From assembly GCA_021814475.1 (NCBI GenBank), contig JAKAIE010000001.1:1-64000 (forward strand): a stretch of 64,000 bases of DNA. Direction: 5' to 3'. The DNA comes from Nitrospirota bacterium (GTDB lineage Bacteria > Nitrospirota > Thermodesulfovibrionia > Thermodesulfovibrionales > UBA6898). A model generated the notes under the pieces. That model saw only the letters and a program-made list of their open reading frames with translations. It searched no databases and was not told the origin of the DNA. How positions within the stretch are numbered: position 1 is the first letter of the stretch; every line of letters starts with the position of its first letter. The position numbers and the translations under genes are program-made. Positions 22,532-60,864 of this stretch are shown one piece after another.

Positions 22532-24013
22532 TTGGGGATCAGCCAGTATTTTTCCTATTTTGCAGCAGCACTGCTTCTGTCCGCGATACTCGTGCCGTTG
22601 ATGCGTCCGCTGGCGTTCAGGCTGGGGGCGGTCGACCGGGGCGAGGGCCGGAGGGTGCATACGGGCATCATCCCGAGGCTCGGAGGCATCGCCTTTTTCA
22701 TGGCCTTTTTCGTAGTCTCTGCCTTCTCCCTCTACCGCGGCACGTGGGACGGGTTTCATAACACCTTTGTCGGCGTCCTGCTCGGCTCGGCTATCATCGC
22801 CCTGCTGGGCTTCTACGACGACCTGAAGGGGGCGCGCGTCAGCCACAAGCTCCTCGCCGAGGTGCTCGCCGCGGTGATCATCTACGCGTGGGGCATCCGC
22901 ATCGACTTTATTGCCAGCCCCCTTGGCGGAAAGATCCTGCTGGGCTGGCTGAGCCTGCCGGTGACGGTTCTCTGGATCATCGTGATCACGAACGCCATAA
23001 ACCTGATAGACGGCCTTGACGGCCTTGCGGCCGGAACCGGCATCTTCATCGCGGCAACCTTCTTTTTCATCTCAGGGGCGGATACCCACCTGCAGCTCTC
23101 CTTCGTGATCCTCGTCGGCGCCCTGGGCGGATTTCTGATCTACAACTTCCCTCCCGCCTCGATCTTCATGGGGGACTCCGGGAGTCTCTTCATCGGTTTC
23201 TTCCTCGGCGCGATGTCGATCCTGTCGTCCCATAAGTCCACTGCCCTTGCCGTGGTCATGGTCCCGATCATCGCCTTCAGCCTGCCGCTCCTCGATATGG
23301 TCTATGCGGTCCTGAGGAGGTACTACCGCGGCCTGCCCCTGGGCGAGCCGGACAGGGAGCATATCCATCACAAACTGCTCGAAAAGGGGTTTTCGAAGAA
23401 GACGGTCCTGGTCGTCATCTATGCGCTCAATGTCGCCGTCATGCTCATGGCGCTTCTGTTCATCAGCAGGCAGGTCAACGGGGCCTTCATCGGGGTCGTC
23501 TTTATGATGGTGTTTGCGGCGGTCGGACTGCGCCTTCTGGGATACGTGAAGTTCATCCCGATCGTGAGGGAGCTGAAACAGAATTTCGAACTGAACCGCA
23601 AGAGGAAGTACTTCAACTACCTCATCAGGCGTTTCAGCCACGGCGTGGGCCGCAACGGCACGATCGGGGAGGTTAGGAGGGAGCTCACTACCCTAGTTCA
23701 CGAATACGGTCTGTCGACCGCCAGGATATACTTCTACCCGTATGACCACGTGCGCCCGTTCTTCGAATACCGCAACCCGGACAAGCAGGAAGACGGCAAG
23801 CCGATCGCACTGACGCTGCCGATCGTCGACCGCGGCAACTATATCGGTTCGATCGAGATCACGAAGGAGATGGACGGCGAATATTTCCTCTGCCTCAGTG
23901 AGCTCCTGAACGCCCTCTGCATGCTGATGCACCGGTATATACCGGGTTACCAGGAGACGGCTGCAGCCCCTGGGCTGCAGCTGATTACTCCGGCAATGAA
24001 CAATGAACGATGA
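22532..24013 (+). CDS. WecA/MraY-family undecaprenyl-phosphate sugar-1-phosphate transferase with C-terminal extension
   Basis: A 493-residue polytopic enzyme that initiates lipid-linked glycan synthesis. Motifs: GFYDDLKGARVSHK (DD pair), NAINLIDGLDGLAAG, IFMGDSGSLFIGF and the REHIHHKLLEKGFSKK histidine motif. About ten membrane helices are expected through residue 340. The last roughly 150 residues are soluble and look like a degenerate GAF-type sensor (TTLVHEYGLSTARIYFYPYD, PIVDRGNYIGSIEI), not present in classical WecA. Start is TTG 22532 with GGGGAGG upstream. Confidence 0.8.
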   Translation: MGISQYFSYFAAALLLSAILVPLMRPLAFRLGAVDRGEGRRVHTGIIPRLGGIAFFMAFFVVSAFSLYRGTWDGFHNTFVGVLLGSAIIALLGFYDDLKGARVSHKLLAEVLAAVIIYAWGIRIDFIASPLGGKILLGWLSLPVTVLWIIVITNAINLIDGLDGLAAGTGIFIAATFFFISGADTHLQLSFVILVGALGGFLIYNFPPASIFMGDSGSLFIGFFLGAMSILSSHKSTALAVVMVPIIAFSLPLLDMVYAVLRRYYRGLPLGEPDREHIHHKLLEKGFSKKTVLVVIYALNVAVMLMALLFISRQVNGAFIGVVFMMVFAAVGLRLLGYVKFIPIVRELKQNFELNRKRKYFNYLIRRFSHGVGRNGTIGEVRRELTTLVHEYGLSTARIYFYPYDHVRPFFEYRNPDKQEDGKPIALTLPIVDRGNYIGSIEITKEMDGEYFLCLSELLNALCMLMHRYIPGYQETAAAPGLQLITPAMNNER

Positions 24014-50784: not shown

Positions 50785-51811
50785 TCGGCCGGTCGTGCTC
50801 CGGTATGCGCCTGAGAGGGTCCTGGTCGTCAAGCCGAGTTCTCTCGGGGATGTCGTCCACAGCCTCCCTTTCCTTCATGCCCTGAAATCGTGTATGCCCG
50901 ATGCCCGGATAGACTGGGTGATCGCCAGGGGTCTGGAAGGCCTTCTGGAGGGGCATCCGATGATCAAGGATCTCATCGTGATAGACAAGGACCGCTGGAG
51001 GCGGATCTCCCGGGCAGCCGAAACGCTGGGCGAGCTAAGGGAGCTCTCGGACAGGCTGAAGGCAGGCGGGTACGATCTCGTGATCGATCTGCAGGGGCTC
51101 CTGCGGAGCGGCCTGATGACGAAGGCAACGGCCGCCCCCGTGCGGATCGGTTTTGCCGAGGCACGGGAGGGGAGCAGGTTTTTTTACACCCATAAGGTAA
51201 CCGGCGGACGGGACATCCACGCCGTCGACCGGTATCTGAAGATCGCGGCTGCACTCGGCTGTCCGCCCGGGAAGGTGGCATTCCCCTTTCCCGAACCGGC
51301 CCGGGGATCCGACGTGGTGCGGGACATCCGGGACCGGCTGAAGGACTATATCGTGCTGGTCCCCGGGGCGAGATGGGACACCAAGATATGGCCCGCGGAG
51401 CTTTTCGGCAGACTTGCCTCAGTCCTTCCTCTGAGATCGGTCGTGATCGGCGGGAACGCGGACCGGCAGAGGGCAGAAGAGATCGTCCGGGTTTCCGGGG
51501 GAAGGGCGGTCTCCCTTGCCGGGCAGACGACGATCCCCGAACTGGTCGAACTGATCAGGAGCTCGCGGTGCGCAATCACGAACGATTCAGGCCCGATGCA
51601 CATCGCCGCTGCCCTGGACATCCCCGTCGTCGCCCTTTTCGGCCCGACGAGTCCGGTGAAGACCGGCCCGTACGGGAGCCGGCACCTGGTCCTGAAGAGT
51701 GAGCGTGCGTGCGCGCCGTGCTTTAAAAAGAAGTGCGATGACATCCGGTGCATGAGGGATATCTCGGTCGAGATGGTGCTGGCCGGGACGAAGGAGTTGC
51801 TGCAGGAATGA
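50777..51811 (+). CDS. Lipopolysaccharide heptosyltransferase (GT9, WaaC-like)
   Basis: A 344-residue GT-B enzyme adding heptose to the LPS core. VLVVKPSSLGDVVHSLPFLH at the N-terminus is the WaaC-type glycine and aspartate motif; DLVIDLQGLLRSGLMTKA, VPGARWDTKIWPAELFGRLA and CAITNDSGPMHIAAALDIPV follow. It overlaps the fused waaF-gmhB gene and the small DsrE-like gene, so LPS core genes form one unit with the secretion operon upstream. Confidence 0.85.
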   Translation: MADRPVVLRYAPERVLVVKPSSLGDVVHSLPFLHALKSCMPDARIDWVIARGLEGLLEGHPMIKDLIVIDKDRWRRISRAAETLGELRELSDRLKAGGYDLVIDLQGLLRSGLMTKATAAPVRIGFAEAREGSRFFYTHKVTGGRDIHAVDRYLKIAAALGCPPGKVAFPFPEPARGSDVVRDIRDRLKDYIVLVPGARWDTKIWPAELFGRLASVLPLRSVVIGGNADRQRAEEIVRVSGGRAVSLAGQTTIPELVELIRSSRCAITNDSGPMHIAAALDIPVVALFGPTSPVKTGPYGSRHLVLKSERACAPCFKKKCDDIRCMRDISVEMVLAGTKELLQE

Positions 51812-52110
51812 AGCTCGGTATCCTGGTGAACACCGACAGGCATGAAGACCATCTTTCCGGGCTCACGAAGGCAGCCGTGGCCCTGGGGCATGACGTGATC
51901 ATCTTCGTGATGGACGACGGCACACGGCTGTTGAGCCGGCCCGTTATACGCGACCTCTGCGGGCTCCCAGGGGTGAGCATAAGTTTCTGCGATATGAACG
52001 CCAGGCAATGCGGCCTGGACCGGGAGGGCCTGCCGCCTTCGATAGTCTGCGGAAGCCAGTACAACAACGCAGTGATGAACCACGAGGCCGACAGGGTGAT
52101 AGTGTTATGA
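51808..52110 (+). CDS. DsrE/DsrF-like small sulfur-relay family protein
   Basis: A 100-residue DsrE-like protein: KLGILVNTDRHEDHLSGLTK, AAVALGHDVIIFVMDDGTRL, and a cysteine-containing ISFCDMNARQCGL at the active-site loop. It starts at ATG 51808 within the previous stop (ATGA), and the next gene starts the same way. DsrE proteins bind persulfide sulfur; why one lies in an LPS operon is not evident from sequence. Confidence 0.7.
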   Translation: MKLGILVNTDRHEDHLSGLTKAAVALGHDVIIFVMDDGTRLLSRPVIRDLCGLPGVSISFCDMNARQCGLDREGLPPSIVCGSQYNNAVMNHEADRVIVL

Positions 52111-52394: not shown

Positions 52395-52688
52395 ATGAAA
52401 ACACTTGACGAAGTAAAGGCGACGCTCAGGAAGCATAAAGCTGAGGTTGTCAGGGACTATAACGTTAAGGAACTCGGTATTTTCGGCTCGGTTGTGCGGG
52501 GAGAGCAGCAGGTGAGAAGCGACATCGATATTCTGGTGGAGTATAACGAACTGCCTGACCTTTTGAAGCTGATAGAGCTTGAAAGAAGACTCCAGCGGAT
52601 ATTGAGAAATAAAGTGGATCTGGTCGAAAAGACCGGCCTCAGACCTGAACTGAAAGATTCAATCCTGGGAGAGGTTGTCTATATATGA
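52395..52688 (+). CDS. mntA: MNT-type nucleotidyltransferase antitoxin
   Basis: A 97-residue minimal nucleotidyltransferase. The GSVVRG and SDIDILVEY motifs give the Gly-Ser and the Asp-x-Asp catalytic centre of MntA, which adenylylates the HEPN toxin HepT. The ATG at 52395 follows GGAGG and fits the family; an earlier start at 52353 is not supported. Its HEPN partner, overlapping at 52685, is broken, so the antitoxin is orphaned. Confidence 0.8.
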   Translation: MKTLDEVKATLRKHKAEVVRDYNVKELGIFGSVVRGEQQVRSDIDILVEYNELPDLLKLIELERRLQRILRNKVDLVEKTGLRPELKDSILGEVVYI

Positions 52689-52778
52689 AGCGGGACTATT
52701 CCTTGTTCCTCAAGGATATTCTCGAAGCGATTTCGGATATAGTAAAGTTTTATCGATGATATGACCTTCACTGAATGA
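52685..52778 (+). pseudogene. hepT: hepT (HEPN toxin) remnant with frameshift
   Basis: ATG overlapping mntA reads MKRDYSLFLKDILEAISDI-VKF, the start of HepT, then stops at 52757. Removing one T from the TTTT at 52748-52751 would continue as IDDMTFTE, the expected HepT sequence, before a stop at 52776. Nothing further of the HEPN domain (the R-x4-H active site) remains. Both a frameshift and a 3' deletion are therefore present. Confidence 0.75.
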
Positions 52779-52976: not shown

Positions 52977-54068
52977 ATGGGATTCTTCGACAGGCTTAGA
53001 AGCGAGTTCGTTGATATCATACAGTGGCTCGACGATTCGAACGACACGCTCGTTCATCGTTTCGAGAGGTACGCAAACGAGATCAAGTACGAGGCGAAGC
53101 TCGTAGTCAGGGAAGGGCAGCAGGCGGTGTTTCTCAATGAAGGCCAGATCGCGGACGTATTTAAGCCCGGCACGTATACCCTGAATACGAAGAACCTGCC
53201 GATCATGGCCACCCTTCAGGGCTGGAAATACGGCTTCGAGAGCCCGTTCAAGGCAGAGGTCTATTTCTGCAGCACCCGCCAGTTCACGAACCTCAAATGG
53301 GGCACCCCCGGCCCGGTTACGATGCGCGACAAAGAGTTCGGCGCGATACGGGTCACATCTTTCGGCATATACTCTATCAGGATCAAGGACCCTGCGGTTT
53401 TCATAAGGGAGATCGTCGGGACCGACGGAAACTTTACGACCGAGTCGATCACTGACAATCTCCGGGGGAAGATAGGCATGAGGATCAAGGAGGTGCTTCC
53501 CGAGACAGGAATTCCTATCATCGATATGGAATCAAAGGTGATGGTCCTCGGCCAGATGCTGAAGGACCGCATAGCGCCTTCCTTCGAGGGGTTCGGCCTT
53601 GAGCTGACGGAGGTCCAGGTGCAGGACATAGGCCTCCCGGAGGAGGTCGAAAGCGCCATAGACAAGAGCGGCGCGATAAAGGCGGTGGGAGACCTGCGGA
53701 CCTTTACCCAGTATGAGACCGCCTCGTCGATAGGCGTTGCGGCCGCAAACCCCAGCGGGGTTGCGGCCGCAGGCGTCGGTATGGGCATGGGCTTTTCGAT
53801 GGCGAACCAGATGGGACAGGCGATGGCAGGCGGTCAGACGCCGTCTCCGGAGGCGCCTCCTCCGCTTCTCGTCTTTTATGCCGCGATCGGGGGAAAGCAG
53901 GAAGGCCCCTTCACCCTGGACATCCTCAAACAGAAGGTTGCCTCCGGCGTGATCACCGGGGAGACCCTGGTCTGGAGGACGGGGATGAAGGAATGGACCG
54001 CCGCGGGTCAGGTCCCTGACCTGGCCGGCCTATTTACGGAGACTCCTCCTCCGCTTCCGGGGACATAG
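52977..54068 (+). CDS. SPFH-domain (YdjI/virion-core-like) protein with GYF_2 tail
   Basis: A 363-residue membrane-associated scaffold protein. It starts GFFDRLRSEFVDIIQWLDDS, has the YdjI-like ANEIKYEAKLVVREGQQAVF, FKPGTYTL and LKWGTPGPVTMRDKEFGAIR (SPFH core about residues 30-240). A Gly/Ala/Met-rich segment (245-280) and a C-terminal GYF_2 domain (about 295-350: YAAIGGKQEGPFTLDILKQK, WRTGMKEWTAAGQ) follow. In B. subtilis, YdjI recruits PspA to membranes. It heads the operon, with GAGGGGGGTGG before the ATG. Confidence 0.85.
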   Translation: MGFFDRLRSEFVDIIQWLDDSNDTLVHRFERYANEIKYEAKLVVREGQQAVFLNEGQIADVFKPGTYTLNTKNLPIMATLQGWKYGFESPFKAEVYFCSTRQFTNLKWGTPGPVTMRDKEFGAIRVTSFGIYSIRIKDPAVFIREIVGTDGNFTTESITDNLRGKIGMRIKEVLPETGIPIIDMESKVMVLGQMLKDRIAPSFEGFGLELTEVQVQDIGLPEEVESAIDKSGAIKAVGDLRTFTQYETASSIGVAAANPSGVAAAGVGMGMGFSMANQMGQAMAGGQTPSPEAPPPLLVFYAAIGGKQEGPFTLDILKQKVASGVITGETLVWRTGMKEWTAAGQVPDLAGLFTETPPPLPGT

Positions 54069-54074
54069 TCCCTG

Positions 54075-55982
54075 ATGAAGGCCAACTGCCCGTCCTGCGG
54101 CGCCGAAGTCATTTTCAGGTCGAGCGTATCCGTCTTTTCGGTATGCGATCATTGCCAGTCGATGATCGTCAGAAAAGATATGGACCTCGAATCTCTCGGC
54201 AGCATGGCGCAACTCCCGGACGATATCTCGCCTCTGAAGATCGGCAGCCGCGGCAAGTGCAGAGGGTCGGCATTCGAGGTGATCGGCCGTCTCCGCGTCT
54301 CGTGGAGCGAGGGGGGATGGAACGAGTGGTATCTCCTCTTTGACGACGGAAATTTCGGCTGGCTCGCAGACGCGATGGGCTTCTTCATGGTGAGCATCGA
54401 GGTGGACGGCCCGGTTAAACTGCCTCCGCTTTCTATCCTCGAACCTGGGAAAGGGGTCGACCTCCAGAAGAAGAAATTCTCGGTCGACGACATAAAGGAG
54501 ACCTCATGTGTGGGAAGCGAGGGCGAACTGCCCTTCAGGGGCATCAGCGGCAGGAAGTCGGTGAGCGTCGACCTCAGCAACAATGCCGGAGAATTCGCGA
54601 ACATCGAATATCCTGAAGGGGAGGAGCCCAGGCTCTACATCGGAAGGTATATGGACTTCGCGAACCTCGAACTCTCGAACCTCAGGGACCTCGAAGCCGA
54701 TATCAAAAAAGTGCGGTCTTCGGAACTCTTCAAATGCCCGTCCTGCGGAGGGCCTTTTTCGATGCTCACCCCCGGCCTGACAGCTTCCGTGGCCTGCCAG
54801 TACTGCGGATCGACGATAGATACCACCCATCCGACTCTCGAGATCCTGAGCAGGGCCGAAAAGAAGATGACGATCAAGCCTCTCATCCCTATAGGCAGCA
54901 GGGGGACCCTCTTCGGGACCCAATGGGAGGTGACCGGATTCGTCAGGAGGGCCGACAAGACCGGGATATATACATGGGACGAATATCTCCTCTTCAATCC
55001 CTTCAGGGGGTTCAGATGGCTGACGACTTATAACGGCCACTGGAATTATGTCGAGATGATGCGTATCCGGCCGGAGCCTGCGGTGTCCGACGTGACGTAC
55101 GGGGGGAAAAGGTTCAAGCGGTTTCTCAACGGAAAGGCGAAGGTCGTCTATGTGCTCGGGGAGTTCTACTGGAGGGTCAGGATAGGGGAGACTGTTGACG
55201 TATCGGACTTCATAAACCCGCCCGAGATTCTCTCCTGCGAAAGCGACCGGACCGAGTCGGACTGGTCGGTCGGGAGGTATATCGAACCCGAGGAGGTTGC
55301 CGGGGCCTTCGGAATAAAGGAGAAAATGCCGGCAAAGGAGGGTGTGGCCCCGAACCAGCCGTCTCCGTATGGCAAATCCGCCCGGGGCATTTCGTTCACC
55401 TTCCTGGGCTTTGTCATGCTCCTGACCTTGCTCCAGATCTATTTTGTCGTGGCCTCGCCTGACAAGCAGGTATACAGAGGCAGCTTCACGTTCAACAGCA
55501 GTGATACGTCAAAGTCTCTGGTCTCCCCCTCATTCGACCTGCCCGGGGGCCCGAACAACCTTTCGGTAGAGATGCGGTCCAATCTCCAGAACGACTGGAT
55601 CGGCGCGGAAATCGACCTGGTCAACGACGGGACCGGCAAGAGTCTAGGTTTCGAGCAGGGCGTCGAATACTATTCTGGCACGGACAGCGACGGTTCATGG
55701 TCCGAGGGAAGCAGGGATAAGAGCCTGGTGCTTTCCTCAGTCCCTGCCGGAAGATACCACCTGGTGATCCAGCCTGCCGCGGACGCGACGAAGCCCGGCG
55801 AGCGGAGCTTCACCCTCTCTCTGCGGATGGGGGTGGCGACGTGGTGCAACTATTTTGCGGCCCTCCTGCTTATCGGGCTCTACCCGATATTTTCATGCGG
55901 GAAGGGCCGGAGCTTTGAAACTAAGAGATGGTCCGAGAGTGACCTTTCTCCCTACGGTACCTCTGATGACGAAGGAGAGTGA
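54075..55982 (+). CDS. Double zinc-ribbon / double DUF4178 membrane protein
   Basis: A 635-residue protein. Two repeats each hold a zinc ribbon (CPSCG ... CDHC at residues 5-27; CPSCG ... CQYCG near 219-240) followed by a DUF4178 domain (FEVIGRLRVSWSEGGWNEWY with LLFDDGNFGWL; WEVTGFVRRADKTGIYTWDE with LLFNPFRGFRW). A membrane helix at about 440-458 (ISFTFLGFVMLLTLLQIYFV) and another near 602-620 flank a beta-rich extracytoplasmic domain. It resembles B. subtilis YdjG in having a zinc ribbon plus membrane anchor. Its activity is unknown. Confidence 0.75.
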   Translation: MKANCPSCGAEVIFRSSVSVFSVCDHCQSMIVRKDMDLESLGSMAQLPDDISPLKIGSRGKCRGSAFEVIGRLRVSWSEGGWNEWYLLFDDGNFGWLADAMGFFMVSIEVDGPVKLPPLSILEPGKGVDLQKKKFSVDDIKETSCVGSEGELPFRGISGRKSVSVDLSNNAGEFANIEYPEGEEPRLYIGRYMDFANLELSNLRDLEADIKKVRSSELFKCPSCGGPFSMLTPGLTASVACQYCGSTIDTTHPTLEILSRAEKKMTIKPLIPIGSRGTLFGTQWEVTGFVRRADKTGIYTWDEYLLFNPFRGFRWLTTYNGHWNYVEMMRIRPEPAVSDVTYGGKRFKRFLNGKAKVVYVLGEFYWRVRIGETVDVSDFINPPEILSCESDRTESDWSVGRYIEPEEVAGAFGIKEKMPAKEGVAPNQPSPYGKSARGISFTFLGFVMLLTLLQIYFVVASPDKQVYRGSFTFNSSDTSKSLVSPSFDLPGGPNNLSVEMRSNLQNDWIGAEIDLVNDGTGKSLGFEQGVEYYSGTDSDGSWSEGSRDKSLVLSSVPAGRYHLVIQPAADATKPGERSFTLSLRMGVATWCNYFAALLLIGLYPIFSCGKGRSFETKRWSESDLSPYGTSDDEGE

Positions 55983-55988
55983 TTGACG

Positions 55989-56123
55989 ATGAAACTTTAC
56001 CTGCTGTACGGGGCGATCATATGCGCGCTTTTTTTTGGCGCGGGGTTGAGAGGCTATGTCCTCTCTGGCATCACGCAGTCTGCAAAATGGGGCCCTCAGG
56101 GGCACGGCATGTATCATAAATAA
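55989..56123 (+). CDS. Small (44-residue) membrane protein
   Basis: A short gene starting 6 bp after the DUF4178 stop. The N-terminal helix KLYLLYGAIICALFFGAGLR spans a membrane; the rest (GYVLSGITQSAKWGPQGHGM) is a short soluble tail ending HGMYHK. The CDS fills the gap between two operon genes, and 23 bp separates it from the DUF350 gene. I do not recognise a family. It may be a subunit of the membrane complex. Confidence 0.65.
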   Translation: MKLYLLYGAIICALFFGAGLRGYVLSGITQSAKWGPQGHGMYHK

Positions 56124-56146
56124 CGCGCAACATTCAAGGAGGAGAT

Positions 56147-56365
56147 ATGGACGGTTTAATCAATGCCAAGGACATGGTGGCCTCGGTGGTATTTTCGGTC
56201 TTCGGTCTCGTGCTCTTCGGGGTGGCCTTTTTCATCTTCGACAAGATCACCCCGGGCGAACTCGGCAATGAGATCCTCGAAAAGCAGAATATGGCGGCCG
56301 CGATCGTGGTTGCCGCGCTCATCCTCGGCATCTCGATCATTGTCGGCATGTCGATACACGGCTGA
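56147..56365 (+). CDS. DUF350 membrane protein
   Basis: A 72-residue protein with two hydrophobic helices: VVFSVFGLVLFGVAFFIFDK and AAAIVVAALILGISIIVGMS, separated by ITPGELGNEILEKQNMA. This is the DUF350 half-repeat, as in E. coli YjfL (which has more copies). AAGGAGG lies before the ATG. In E. coli the yjfIJKLMC operon links DUF350 with a PspA homologue and a glutathionylspermidine-synthase-like protein, which parallels the polyamine enzyme encoded next here. Confidence 0.85.
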   Translation: MDGLINAKDMVASVVFSVFGLVLFGVAFFIFDKITPGELGNEILEKQNMAAAIVVAALILGISIIVGMSIHG

Positions 56366-56380
56366 ATAAAGTCCCTGCAG

Positions 56381-57877
56381 ATGGCGTATGCCCTGCTTCT
56401 TTCCGTATTCATCATCTCGACCTGCGGTCTGGTCTATGAACTGACCGCAGGGGCGCTTGCAAGTTATCTCCTCGGGGACTCGGTCACCCAGTTTTCTATC
56501 ATTATCGGCGTCTATCTCTCGGCCATGGGGCTCGGCTCCTGGCTGTCGCGCCATATCGTCAGGAACGTCATCACGGTCTTTATCGAGGTCGAGATGCTCA
56601 TCGGTCTTGTCGGCGGCTGTTCGTCAGCCCTTCTCTTTACGCTCTTTGAAGTGTCGGCGTATTTCCGTTCCATCCTCTATCTGCTTATAAGCGTGACCGG
56701 GGTCCTGGTGGGGCTCGAAATACCCCTCATCATGCGGGTGCTCAAAAACAGGTTCGAGTTCAAAGACCTGGTCTCTAAGGTCTTCACCTTCGACTATATC
56801 GGCGCGCTTTTTGCGTCGCTCCTCTTCCCTCTCATCCTTGTGCCGTACCTCGGCCTGATCAGGTCTTCGTTCATGTTCGGCATCATCAATGTGCTGGTGG
56901 CGCTCTGGGCGCTCCGCCTTTTCAAAGATGAGGTGCGTTGGGCGAAGGGGCTCGCCGGGACTGCCTTTTTCCTCCTCGCCCTTCTTGCCACCGGGTTTGT
57001 CTGGTCCGGGAGTATCCTGCAGTTTACCGAGACCCTCGGGTACAAGGGGGACATAATCTACGCAAAGACCACCCACTATCAGCGCATGGTCCTTGTGCGC
57101 GACGCCGACAGCCTCCAGCTCTTCCTCAACGGGAATCTCCAGTTCAACTCCCGCGACGAATACAGGTACCACGAGGCCCTGGTGCATCCGGGGCTGGGCT
57201 CGATAAAGGAACCGAAAGATGTCCTTGTCCTCGGCGGAGGCGACGGTCTAGCCCTGAGGGAGATATTGAAGTACGGCACGGTCAGATCCGTAACCCTGGT
57301 AGACCTGGATCCCGCCATGACCAATCTCTTCAGGACCCACGAGACCCTCGTCGCGCTGAACAAGGGCTCGCTCAATTCGCCGAAGGTTAAGATCATCAAT
57401 GCCGACGGCTTTGTCTGGATCAGGGAGAACCGCAGGCTGTTCGACTTCATCGTCGTGGACCTTCCCGACCCTTCGAGCTTCTCTCTGGGCAAGCTCTACA
57501 CCAGCACCTTTTACCGGTTCCTGGACAGGGCCCTGGCCGAAGACGGCGTCATAGTGATCCAGAGCACTTCTCCCTTCGTGGCAAGAAAGGCCTTCTGGTG
57601 TGTCGTCAACACCCTCCGTTCCGTCGGCCTCGAAACGACTCCGTATCATGTATATCTTCCGTCTTTCGGAGAATGGGGGTATGTGATCGCGACGAAGAGG
57701 CCTTTCGTAATGCCGGACAGGTTCATGCCCGGGCTTCGCTTCATCACGCCCGAGACCGCAAAGGCGATGACCGGATTTCCGCCCGATATGGGGGAGGTCG
57801 CTACAGAGGTGAACAGACTGAACAACCAGGTCCTTGTGAGGTACTTTGAGGAGGAGTGGGCGAGGTATGTCCGCTGA
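56381..57877 (+). CDS. Membrane-spanning spermidine-synthase-like aminopropyltransferase
   Basis: A 498-residue protein. The first 210 residues form about seven helices (LLLSVFIISTCGLVYELTAG, FSIIIGVYLSAMGLGSWLSR, FDYIGALFASLLFPLILVPY). The C-terminal 290 residues are a spermidine synthase fold: LFLNGNLQFNSRDEYRYHEA, VLVLGGGDGLALREILKYG, VDLDPAMTNLF, INADGFVWIRE, VVDLPDPSSFSLGKLYT. The GGGDG and DxPDP motifs are intact. It probably uses decarboxylated AdoMet or a relative to modify a polyamine-like or membrane substrate. It starts 15 bp after DUF350 and overlaps the flavoenzyme gene by 11 bp. Confidence 0.85.
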   Translation: MAYALLLSVFIISTCGLVYELTAGALASYLLGDSVTQFSIIIGVYLSAMGLGSWLSRHIVRNVITVFIEVEMLIGLVGGCSSALLFTLFEVSAYFRSILYLLISVTGVLVGLEIPLIMRVLKNRFEFKDLVSKVFTFDYIGALFASLLFPLILVPYLGLIRSSFMFGIINVLVALWALRLFKDEVRWAKGLAGTAFFLLALLATGFVWSGSILQFTETLGYKGDIIYAKTTHYQRMVLVRDADSLQLFLNGNLQFNSRDEYRYHEALVHPGLGSIKEPKDVLVLGGGDGLALREILKYGTVRSVTLVDLDPAMTNLFRTHETLVALNKGSLNSPKVKIINADGFVWIRENRRLFDFIVVDLPDPSSFSLGKLYTSTFYRFLDRALAEDGVIVIQSTSPFVARKAFWCVVNTLRSVGLETTPYHVYLPSFGEWGYVIATKRPFVMPDRFMPGLRFITPETAKAMTGFPPDMGEVATEVNRLNNQVLVRYFEEEWARYVR

Positions 57878-59507
57878 TCCGCCGGACCGCTCCATCACAC
57901 GGCGCTCTTTTCTGAAAAAAACCGCCCTGGCCGCTGGAGCGGCCGCGGGACTGATCTCCTGCAATCCAGTTGTCCCCGCCGGGAGAAGGAAATTCCCCGG
58001 GCGCATTATGGGGGCGGACTGGAAGACCGGGCATATGCTGCTCGAAGGCAGGAAGACCGCGCCTTCAGCCACTGTCAAAACAGGCATCGTCATTGTCGGC
58101 GGCGGCATTGCAGGCCTATCCGCGGCAAGGGAACTGGCGAAGAATGGGTGCGGAGATTTTCTGCTCCTCGAACTTGGCGGGACGGTCGGCGGCAATGCCG
58201 CCAGCGGGGCCAACGCTGTTTCGGCGTATCCGTGGGGGGCGCATTATGTGCCTATACCCGGCGAAGAAGCGGTCTTCACGAGGGAGCTTTTCCGGGAGCT
58301 CGGGATCATAGAAGGATATGATTCAAAGGGGCTGCCGATCTACAATGAGTTTTATCTCTGCGCCGATCCGATGGAGAGGCTCTTCATCCACGGCAGGTGG
58401 CAGGAAGGGCTCGTGCCGAATATCGGCATCTCCGGAAGAGATAAACAGCAGTATGCCGAATTCTTCGGCATGATGGAAGGGTTCAGGCGGGCCAGGGGAG
58501 CGGACGGCAGACGCGCCTTTGCGATTCCCCTCGAACTCAGCTCAGCCGACGAACGCTTCCGGCGGTTTGACCGCATGAGCATGAGGAGGTTCATGTCCGT
58601 CAACGGCTGGGACTCGGAGCCTCTCCTGTGGTACACGGACTACTGCTGCCGCGATGATTACGGCAGTACGCTCGATGACGTCTCCGCCTGGGCGGGCATC
58701 CATTACTTCGCGGCAAGGGACGGAAGGGCGTCAAACGCAGAACCCCAGGCGGTCGTCACCTGGCCGGAGGGAAACGGGTGGATCGTCAGGAGGATGGCGG
58801 AGCCGTTGCACGACAGGATCCGGTGCAGTTCCTGTGTCCTGAATATCGGGAGATCCGGGAGCGATATCGCCACAGATGTCTTCGACAGCCGGACGAAGAC
58901 GGTGACCAGGGTCGTCTCTCAGGCGGTCGTATATGCCGCCCCGAGGTTCACCGCCATGAAGACGATACAGGACCTCCGTGACAGACCCTCTCCCTACGTG
59001 AAGGACTTCGGATACGCCCCCTGGGTTATCGCGAACATAACTGTCAGGGGAATTCCGGCAGGCAAGGGCGCCGCCCTCTCCTGGGACAATGTCGTATACA
59101 AGGGTGAGTCCCTCGGCTATGTGGACGCAGGTCATCAGGATATCTCGTATTACAGGGACAAGACGGTTATGACGTACTATAAACCCCTTGTCCCGGGAGA
59201 CCCGGCCGCTGAAAGGAAAAGGGCGCTCGGGACCGGGTACGATATATGGGCGGAGATGATCGTCAGGGAGCTCTCTGCGATCCATCCGGGCATCGAACAG
59301 GCCATCGAGGAACTGAATGTCTGGATCTGGGGGCATGCCATGATCAGGCCCGTGCCCGGATTCATATGGGGCGAGGCAAGGCAGGCCGCCCTGAAGCCGC
59401 TCGGCAGAATTCATTTTGCGCATTCCGACATGAGCGGCATATCCATATTCGAAGAGGCCCAGTACAGGGGGATCATGGCGGCAAGGGCCGCTGTGAACAG
59501 TGTATAG
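57867..59507 (+). CDS. Tat-exported FAD-dependent amine-oxidase-like lipoprotein
   Basis: A 546-residue flavoenzyme. The N-terminus DRSITRRSFLKKTALAAGAA is a canonical twin-arginine signal ending in GLISC, a lipobox, so a periplasmic lipoprotein is expected. The Rossmann motif IVGGGIAGLSAARELAKNG begins near residue 75, followed by GGTVGGNAASG and a C-terminal FAD contact HFAHSDMSGISIFEEAQYRG. The fold resembles flavin amine oxidases and phytoene-desaturase-like enzymes. It may oxidise a product of the preceding polyamine-synthase-like protein; the substrate is inference. The ATG at 57867 is preferred over 57846. Confidence 0.8.
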   Translation: MSADPPDRSITRRSFLKKTALAAGAAAGLISCNPVVPAGRRKFPGRIMGADWKTGHMLLEGRKTAPSATVKTGIVIVGGGIAGLSAARELAKNGCGDFLLLELGGTVGGNAASGANAVSAYPWGAHYVPIPGEEAVFTRELFRELGIIEGYDSKGLPIYNEFYLCADPMERLFIHGRWQEGLVPNIGISGRDKQQYAEFFGMMEGFRRARGADGRRAFAIPLELSSADERFRRFDRMSMRRFMSVNGWDSEPLLWYTDYCCRDDYGSTLDDVSAWAGIHYFAARDGRASNAEPQAVVTWPEGNGWIVRRMAEPLHDRIRCSSCVLNIGRSGSDIATDVFDSRTKTVTRVVSQAVVYAAPRFTAMKTIQDLRDRPSPYVKDFGYAPWVIANITVRGIPAGKGAALSWDNVVYKGESLGYVDAGHQDISYYRDKTVMTYYKPLVPGDPAAERKRALGTGYDIWAEMIVRELSAIHPGIEQAIEELNVWIWGHAMIRPVPGFIWGEARQAALKPLGRIHFAHSDMSGISIFEEAQYRGIMAARAAVNSV

Positions 59508-59708: not shown

Positions 59709-60020
59709 ATGAAAGCATCCGGGAATTACGTGATGGTTTTGTTGGGTCTGTTTCTGATGGCGTCCGCAACAGATGCGTTCGCCTATACAGGACAGAAATT
59801 AGCCGGAGATGCAAAGATCAGCCTGGAACAGGCGCGGGTGATCGCCCTCAGGGCCCATCCCGGGAAGATTGCCGATGAGGAACTGGAACAGGAGAAAGGC
59901 GGCAGCGGCCTGCGCTATTCCTTCGACATCCGACACGGCAAGGTCACGCAGGAAGTTGGCGTGGACGCCAAAACTGGCGATCTGCTGGAAAACGCACCGG
60001 AGGGTCCTGACGCGGACTAA
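59709..60020 (+). CDS. PepSY-domain periplasmic protein
   Basis: A 103-residue protein with a signal peptide cut near TDAFA (residue 25) and one PepSY domain: KISLEQARVIALRAHPGKIA, LRYSFDIRHGKVTQEVGVDA, KTGDLLE. Small PepSY proteins often regulate peptidases or act as ligands of sensor kinases. GGAAGGAG precedes the ATG at 59709. It is the first gene of the operon behind the direct-repeat box and may modulate the histidine kinase encoded at its end. Confidence 0.85.
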   Translation: MKASGNYVMVLLGLFLMASATDAFAYTGQKLAGDAKISLEQARVIALRAHPGKIADEELEQEKGGSGLRYSFDIRHGKVTQEVGVDAKTGDLLENAPEGPDAD

Positions 60021-60105
60021 ATTCTCTTTGGGCCTCAAGGCCACTTTTCAGTTGCTCAAAAATATCAAAACTGTCATAAAATTGGCAGGTAGAAAGGAAA
60101 GTCGT

Positions 60106-60864
60106 ATGGACAATATCAGTGAGCGCACCTTGAGCAAGGTTCCAGAAGTCACTTTGATCTTCTGGATTATTAAAATAGCGGCTACCACCCTGGGTGAAAC
60201 CGGCGGCGATACAGTGTCTATGTCTATGAAACTGGGTTATCTTGTTGGAACAGCCATTTTCGCCGCAATTTTTCTGGTCGCTGTAGCTGCCCAAATTAAG
60301 GCAAGGGGCTTCCACCCGTTCCTCTACTGGACGACGATAATCGCAACGACAACAGTTGGAACGACGTTGGCTGATTTTGCAGACCGGTCCCTTGGAATAG
60401 GATATGCCGGGGGTGCATTGTTGCTATTTATCCTGCTGATGGCATCACTGTTCATTTGGTACCGTTCACTGGGCACGGTATCGGTTGATACCATCAGTTC
60501 TCCAAAAGCAGAGATGTTCTATTGGCTGACAATCATGTTTTCTCAGACCTTAGGGACTGCTCTGGGCGACTGGACCGCCGACACTGCCGGACTTGGTTAC
60601 GGAGGCGGCGCGCTTGTGTTCAGTGTCTTGCTGGCCCTTGTGGTTGCGGCGTACTACAGGACAAACATATCCCGTACTATGCTGTTTTGGGCGGCGTTTA
60701 TTCTTACGCGCCCGCTTGGGGCGGTAGTCGGAGATCTTCTTGACAAGCCGCTCAGTGCGGGCGGGCTGGCATTAAGCCGCTATTCCGCCTCGGCTGCGCT
60801 TTTTGCATTTATGCTGACGTGTATTTTATTTTTCAAGCAGAGGGCAGCGGAAAAGGTTCATTAA
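60106..60864 (+). CDS. COG4705-type membrane protein with four GD-type repeats
   Basis: A 252-residue polytopic protein with about eight helices. Four repeats carry similar loops: ATTLGETGGDTVS, TTTVGTTLADFADRS, SQTLGTALGDWTADT and TRPLGAVVGDLLDKP. Each follows a helix, giving an internally repeated membrane fold with acidic residues inside. This is the COG4705 family, of unknown transport function, often found with two-component genes. AAAGGAAAG precedes the ATG at 60106. The only coupling evidence is position. Confidence 0.75.
   Translation: MDNISERTLSKVPEVTLIFWIIKIAATTLGETGGDTVSMSMKLGYLVGTAIFAAIFLVAVAAQIKARGFHPFLYWTTIIATTTVGTTLADFADRSLGIGYAGGALLLFILLMASLFIWYRSLGTVSVDTISSPKAEMFYWLTIMFSQTLGTALGDWTADTAGLGYGGGALVFSVLLALVVAAYYRTNISRTMLFWAAFILTRPLGAVVGDLLDKPLSAGGLALSRYSASAALFAFMLTCILFFKQRAAEKVH

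Follow-up and report, generated by a model that had tools for sequence, protein, structure and literature searches.

A conserved membrane operon joins a spermidine-synthase-like enzyme, a Tat flavoenzyme and a small peptide ending in lysine

Results

The window, a 64,000-nucleotide stretch of a Nitrospirota contig (JAKAIE010000001.1), holds six open reading frames (ORFs) on the forward strand between positions 52977 and 59507. The first (52977-54068) encodes an SPFH (band-7) scaffold with a C-terminal GYF_2 domain, predicted to be cytoplasmic (Pfam Band_7_1, 343 bits; GYF_2, 67 bits), and 6 bp separate it from a gene (54075-55982) whose product contains a zinc ribbon-DUF4178 unit twice, followed by a helix, an ectodomain and a second helix (two DUF4178 copies, 128 bits; CxxC pairs). 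After 0-6 bp, depending on the choice of start codon, comes a 44-amino acid one-helix peptide ending in Met-Tyr-His-Lys (55989-56123), which matched no Pfam family and which we propose, from the conservation of its C-terminal lysine, to be the substrate of a modification. A 23 bp gap leads to a 72-amino acid DUF350 protein of a half-length, two-helix form (56147-56365; 49 bits), and 15 bp further on lies the gene for a seven-helix membrane domain fused to an aminopropyltransferase of the spermidine-synthase fold (56381-57877). The final ORF (57867-59507) overlaps its predecessor by 11-32 bp, according to the start chosen, and encodes an FAD amine-oxidase-like enzyme with predicted Tat export and a lipobox-like cysteine. 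Two gene starts were corrected, the most likely being ATG at 57867 for the flavoenzyme and ATG at 55989 for the peptide, with TTG at 55983 as an alternative for the latter; candidate starts give a peptide of 44-46 amino acids. The ORFs together with their Pfam and NCBIfam matches thus confirm the original prediction of six same-strand genes with small gaps or overlap.

Pfam matches revealed no ATP-grasp, peptidase or TPM-domain protein among the six products, in agreement with the earlier statement that an ATP-grasp enzyme is absent. A promoter scan showed no excess over shuffled sequence, and a terminator scan yielded little. Upstream of the operon are an MNT-type nucleotidyltransferase (52395-52760; Pfam NTP_transf_2), just after it a very short frame that is apparently what remains of its HEPN partner, and, outside the operon, a weakly matching DsrE-like small protein (51808-52110) that adjoins a heptosyltransferase. 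Downstream on the same strand, ~360 bp away, is a DUF347-repeat membrane protein (59869-60864), which is unlinked in related operons.

Scanning the genome collection with a flavoenzyme alignment gave 281 relatives, and the best 80 of these 281 contigs were read. Among these 80 the seven-helix aminopropyltransferase was present in 64, DUF4178 in 58, DUF350 in 55, SpeD in 36 and SPFH in 30, while many of the remaining loci were on contigs ending early or had partner genes elsewhere. PspA was found in none of the 80 and nowhere in the window's whole genome, which extends the earlier observation that none lies nearby. Contig names covered Nitrospirae, Cyanobacteriota/Melainabacteria, Bdellovibrionales, Verrucomicrobia, Leptospirales, several proteobacterial groups, Bacteroidota and others. 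Gene order was kept in Nitrospirota genomes bearing DUF4178 of the window's type, and the six-gene order recurs across other genera, orders and phyla and is therefore not due to chance; the operon is conserved as a unit over many phyla. The six genes had been predicted to belong together, and both the order within the phylum and the 80-contig scan bear this out. A chance neighbourhood of an FAD enzyme and a spermidine synthase was likewise ruled out by the co-occurrence counts in the 80 flavoenzyme loci.

Within Nitrospirota, DUF4178 was present in 16 of 296 sampled genomes. It was present in 15/15 flavoenzyme-bearing genomes tested, and one operon without an adjacent flavoenzyme (L039) has this gene elsewhere in the genome (L049). 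DUF350 orthologues were 68-76 amino acids long in 55 loci, and SPFH orthologues from other phyla carry SHOCT in place of GYF (L055:4201-5187, L074:4175-5167). In DUF4178 homologues from five loci, the C-terminal ectodomain matches a protein (Lipo40) that is a separate membrane protein in the PspA-type operon at L040; the window's own ectodomain gave no such match at 1e-3.

The aminopropyltransferase exceeded the cut-offs of both Spermine_synth (PF01564; 139 bits over 22.9) and NF002956 (657 bits over 472). Its AlphaFold2 model (pLDDT 89.6) has seven N-terminal helices and matches SpeE structures in Foldseek, with E values down to 5.7e-16. Q254, D259, Y263, D310, D342, D360 and D363 were found in 121/121 sequences, and positions 288 and 308 were Asp or Glu in all 121. 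We take these residues to be the donor-binding and catalytic Asp, Gln and Tyr of SpeE-type enzymes, and on this alignment the predicted catalytic set is invariant or nearly so; the synthase-like domain, whose active site had been in question, has kept these residues. Lys and Arg are enriched in the loops of one membrane face in 121/121 sequences, and by the positive-inside rule the seven helices would leave the N-terminus cytoplasmic and the catalytic domain external. Such an arrangement is consistent with the parts meeting in the periplasm, as the domain would then share its side of the membrane with the Tat enzyme and the lipoprotein tails.

SpeD linked in 36/80 loci supports an aminopropyl donor. 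A search of the window's own assembly, which is 94% complete, gave no SpeD, an absence likely due to that incompleteness. A dcAdoMet-independent enzyme was considered and dropped, since SpeD is carried by 15/15 other DUF4178-bearing relatives. The window's genome holds a separate soluble-type SpeE next to a decarboxylase-like gene (G000:C52, around 23132-23668), and the organism therefore also has an ordinary polyamine route.

In the flavoenzyme a Tat signal was recognised by TIGR01409 (23 bits over 16.7), and the protein matched both the flavin amine oxidase family (PF01593, Amino_oxidase; 36 bits over 19.8) and NAD_binding_8. Its model (pLDDT 89.3) resembles monoamine oxidase (MAO), putrescine oxidase and spermidine dehydrogenase (SpdH), with an E value of 1.8e-23 against MAO-A in Foldseek, and the fold is confidently predicted to be monoamine/putrescine-oxidase-like, in line with the oxidase role first assigned to it.

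The slot between DUF4178 and DUF350 is filled in nearly every operon by a peptide of ~45-70 amino acids that has a single hydrophobic helix followed by a 22-44-residue tail. The last residue was lysine in 59/60 untruncated flavoenzyme-anchored operons and the ending was His-Lys in 57, with variable positions farther from the C-terminus; at the single exception (L100) DUF4178 and DUF350 were also not nearby. Gly-Lys replaces His-Lys in five lysine-tailed flavoenzyme loci or sets. As background, none of 609 small hydrophobic opposite-strand ORFs from the same loci ended in His-Lys. Positive charge was greater before the helix than after it in 32 peptides, with the reverse in 11 and 16 ties; this tendency, like the lipoprotein tails, which must lie outside, fits a periplasmic meeting of all parts. 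The tail table was compiled by hand from the listed ORFs and every ending was then verified against the ORF set.

Because the first set was chosen by the flavoenzyme, a second sample was drawn by the seven-helix aminopropyltransferase from Pseudomonadota and Bacteroidota, in which 57 neighbourhoods were read and 55 were untruncated; the two samples share at least one species. An envelope protein with a C-terminal lysine was found in 49 of these 55 loci, with endings that included Tyr-His-Lys, Gly-Gly-Lys, Gly-Phe-Gly-Lys, Arg-Gly-Lys and Gly-Arg-Ile-Lys; among 1300 background opposite-strand ORFs, 64 ended in lysine. The six exceptions were two Gly-Gly tails (L211, L213) and four loci with no Lys or Gly-Gly tail in the stretch read (L178, L179, L218, L220). 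All five Nitrospirota loci of the PspA type or related to it (L037, L040-L043) had a lysine tail as well. The anchors bearing these tails varied and comprised helix peptides, lipoproteins, and fusions to the end of DUF4178 (L180-182, L186, L210) or of another membrane protein (L193). Several flavoenzyme-bearing operons have Gly in place of the -2 histidine, and all those without the flavoenzyme have Gly, Ile or Val there, with the lysine kept throughout. We had considered the association of His-Lys with the flavoenzyme as proof of direct action and rejected it, the Fisher value of 2e-13 being invalid; the tree shows essentially one transition, and the covariation is therefore not independent support and counts as weak evidence.

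A ligase requires a terminal carboxylate and an aminopropyltransferase requires an amine, and the tail endings differ with the neighbouring enzyme. At L211 and L213 an ATP-grasp YjfC homologue and SpeD lie beside the aminopropyltransferase and the tail ends in Ser-Tyr-Gly-Gly; in the tree both loci are nested within a clade of lysine tails with a support of 99. Upstream neighbours of 42 GSP_synth-type ATP-grasp relatives ended in Gly-Gly (23), Gly-Ser (7), Ser-Ser (4) or otherwise (8), and none (0/42) ended in lysine. Likewise, E. coli YgiB (L149:745-1416) and YjfM (L148:5388-6026) end in Gly-Gly, and YgiC and YjfC of this species are annotated as peptide-spermidine ligases (RefSeq product name; Pederick 2023 as cited in PMC12270671). 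Our case for the terminal residue as the substrate rests mainly on the pairing of a lysine end with the aminopropyltransferase and of Gly-Gly with the ligase. Ligase-side tails (L237-L287, YgiB/YjfM) nearly always finish in Gly or Ser, most often Gly-Gly, preceded by a Gly/Ser/Arg-rich stretch, and an RGGFG motif is frequent.

Discussion

We give about an even chance to the operon attaching a polyamine-type group, on the periplasmic side, to a protein tail anchored in the envelope, with lysine as the acceptor and subsequent oxidation by the flavoenzyme. The peptide at 55989-56123 would act as a one-helix anchor whose flexible tail presents His-Lys, and an aminopropyl group from SpeD-made dcAdoMet would be transferred onto the terminal lysine, with its epsilon amine as the presumed acceptor atom. 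The Tat flavoenzyme (57867-59507) would then oxidise the new amine, while the SPFH-GYF protein, the zinc-ribbon/DUF4178 protein and DUF350 may form a scaffold or regulatory membrane complex. The seven-helix domain could carry dcAdoMet to a catalytic domain predicted to lie in the periplasm; alternatively, a cytoplasmic active site might work before export. The physiological role may be in membrane or envelope stress. Several points speak against this protein-tail modification: the conserved lysine at the tail's end may serve for docking or sorting, an outside catalytic domain leaves the periplasmic supply of the donor unexplained, His-Lys covaries with the flavoenzyme on essentially one branch, five flavoenzyme loci or sets have Gly-Lys, four sampled loci show neither a Lys nor a Gly-Gly tail nearby, and the window's own assembly yielded no SpeD. 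The original prediction, that the operon makes and then oxidises a polyamine-like group, is compatible with these data, although they point to a protein tail, not a free polyamine, as the probable acceptor. It had overlooked the nearly universal C-terminal lysine of the peptide, the SpeD that accompanies the operon in other loci and the sister operon considered below.

The same genes could instead make a free spermidine-like polyamine at the membrane, which the flavoenzyme would oxidise, with the peptide as an accessory subunit and its lysine as a docking or assembly signal. The membrane enzyme genuinely has the SpeE fold, the flavoenzyme model resembles enzymes that oxidise putrescine and spermidine, and C-terminal residues can, as is generally known, act as recognition motifs. 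We nevertheless consider this unlikely, if still a serious competitor, as the genome already holds a soluble-type SpeE beside a decarboxylase-like gene, and a docking motif is unlikely to consist of the last residue alone on unrelated anchors and is not expected to become Gly-Gly in the company of an ATP-grasp ligase. Modification of the histidine or of the terminal carboxylate, or cleavage of the peptide as a precursor into a small product, appears improbable. Diphthamide, in which a histidine accepts an aminocarboxypropyl group from S-adenosylmethionine, offers a precedent, and the -2 histidine is found in 57/59 operon peptides, but this residue is exchanged while the lysine stays, and the operon contains neither a peptidase nor an ATP-grasp gene.

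Very improbable, in our judgement, is a neighbourhood without shared chemistry; here the genes would encode a membrane-stress complex, with the aminopropyltransferase domain in a sensor role and the lysine tail held by its charge to phospholipid or polyanions. Catalytic residues invariant in 121 sequences and the linkage of SpeD and the oxidase argue against it, and a pure charge role needs no single lysine exactly at the end, even though, according to Ravi et al. 2024 (PMC11237479), SPFH, DUF350 and the partners of the PspA type belong among membrane-stress proteins.

The operon family itself is already known through a PspA-containing sister operon (PMC11237479). In Ravi et al. 2024 (PMC11237479), an operon of CesT/Tir-PspA, a 7TM-spermidine synthase, DUF350, DUF4178 and a lipoprotein of the Ctha_1186 type is described, together with a related group that has an ATP-grasp ligase. 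Their second-group operon resembles that of the window in uniting a 7TM aminopropyltransferase, DUF350 and DUF4178, whereas the window has SPFH-GYF replacing CesT/Tir-PspA, a doubled DUF4178, a half-length DUF350 and an added Tat flavoenzyme; PspA, part of the CesT/Tir-PspA dyad, was found neither in the window's genome nor in the best 80 of the 281 flavoenzyme loci. We found that Ravi-type operons also carry a C-terminal-lysine tail protein, which goes unmentioned in the accessible text of that paper. What is new here is the near-universal C-terminal lysine of the peptide, and the peptide itself looks like the key part of the operon. No description of aminopropylated lysine tails turned up in the openly accessible literature that was searched.

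The E. coli YgiB-YgiC and YjfIJKLMC systems resemble the operon studied here in having DUF350 (YjfL), a setting of membrane stress and, next to a polyamine-related enzyme, a Gly/Ser-rich tail protein anchored in the envelope, but YgiBC and YjfMC pair an ATP-grasp ligase with a Gly-Gly tail, whereas this operon pairs an aminopropyltransferase with a His-Lys tail and has no ligase. The analogy with Bacillus YdjI/YdjG drawn in the original prediction holds in part: B. subtilis ydjFGHI likewise pairs an SPFH protein with a membrane protein bearing a zinc ribbon, while the operon here has neither PspA nor a TPM-domain protein and adds polyamine genes. The flavoenzyme is like MAO, putrescine oxidase and SpdH in predicted fold and FAD-binding motif; it differs from them in sharing only 14-19% identity, in its predicted Tat export and in its operon linkage. 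In the hypusine pathway, deoxyhypusine synthase acts on a lysine of eIF5A, which receives a polyamine-derived aminoalkyl group that is then oxidised. The likeness to the window is one of concept only, as the enzymes are unrelated and the donor, acceptor protein, location and oxidation chemistry differ.

It is possible, if somewhat doubtful, that bacteria of many phyla, in a so far unrecognised post-translational modification, aminopropylate the C-terminal lysine of a tail anchored in the envelope, giving a hypusine-like, tethered polyamine that in a subset is oxidised by the Tat flavoenzyme. The oxidation product would probably be an aldehyde, which could serve in crosslinking. If protein-tail modification is correct, Gly-Gly tails with a ligase and lysine tails with a transferase would be two chemical solutions to one end, membrane spermidine-synthase-like enzymes would act on a protein tail at a named residue and not on a free diamine, and polyamine/envelope operons of the PspA, SPFH and YjfC types would be united as makers of polyamine-tipped envelope tails. 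On this reading the most conserved clue in the operon is a small gene outside all Pfam families.

A further membrane protein accompanies some of these operons. This polytopic, His-containing protein X of ~370 amino acids has no Pfam match and was not found in 11 Nitrospirota genomes by a search run without a positive control; it lies between the flavoenzyme and SpeD (L055:10629-11744, L110:10623-11750 and others) and turns up repeatedly in operons from Bdellovibrionota, Bacteroidota, Cyanobacteriota and Proteobacteria.
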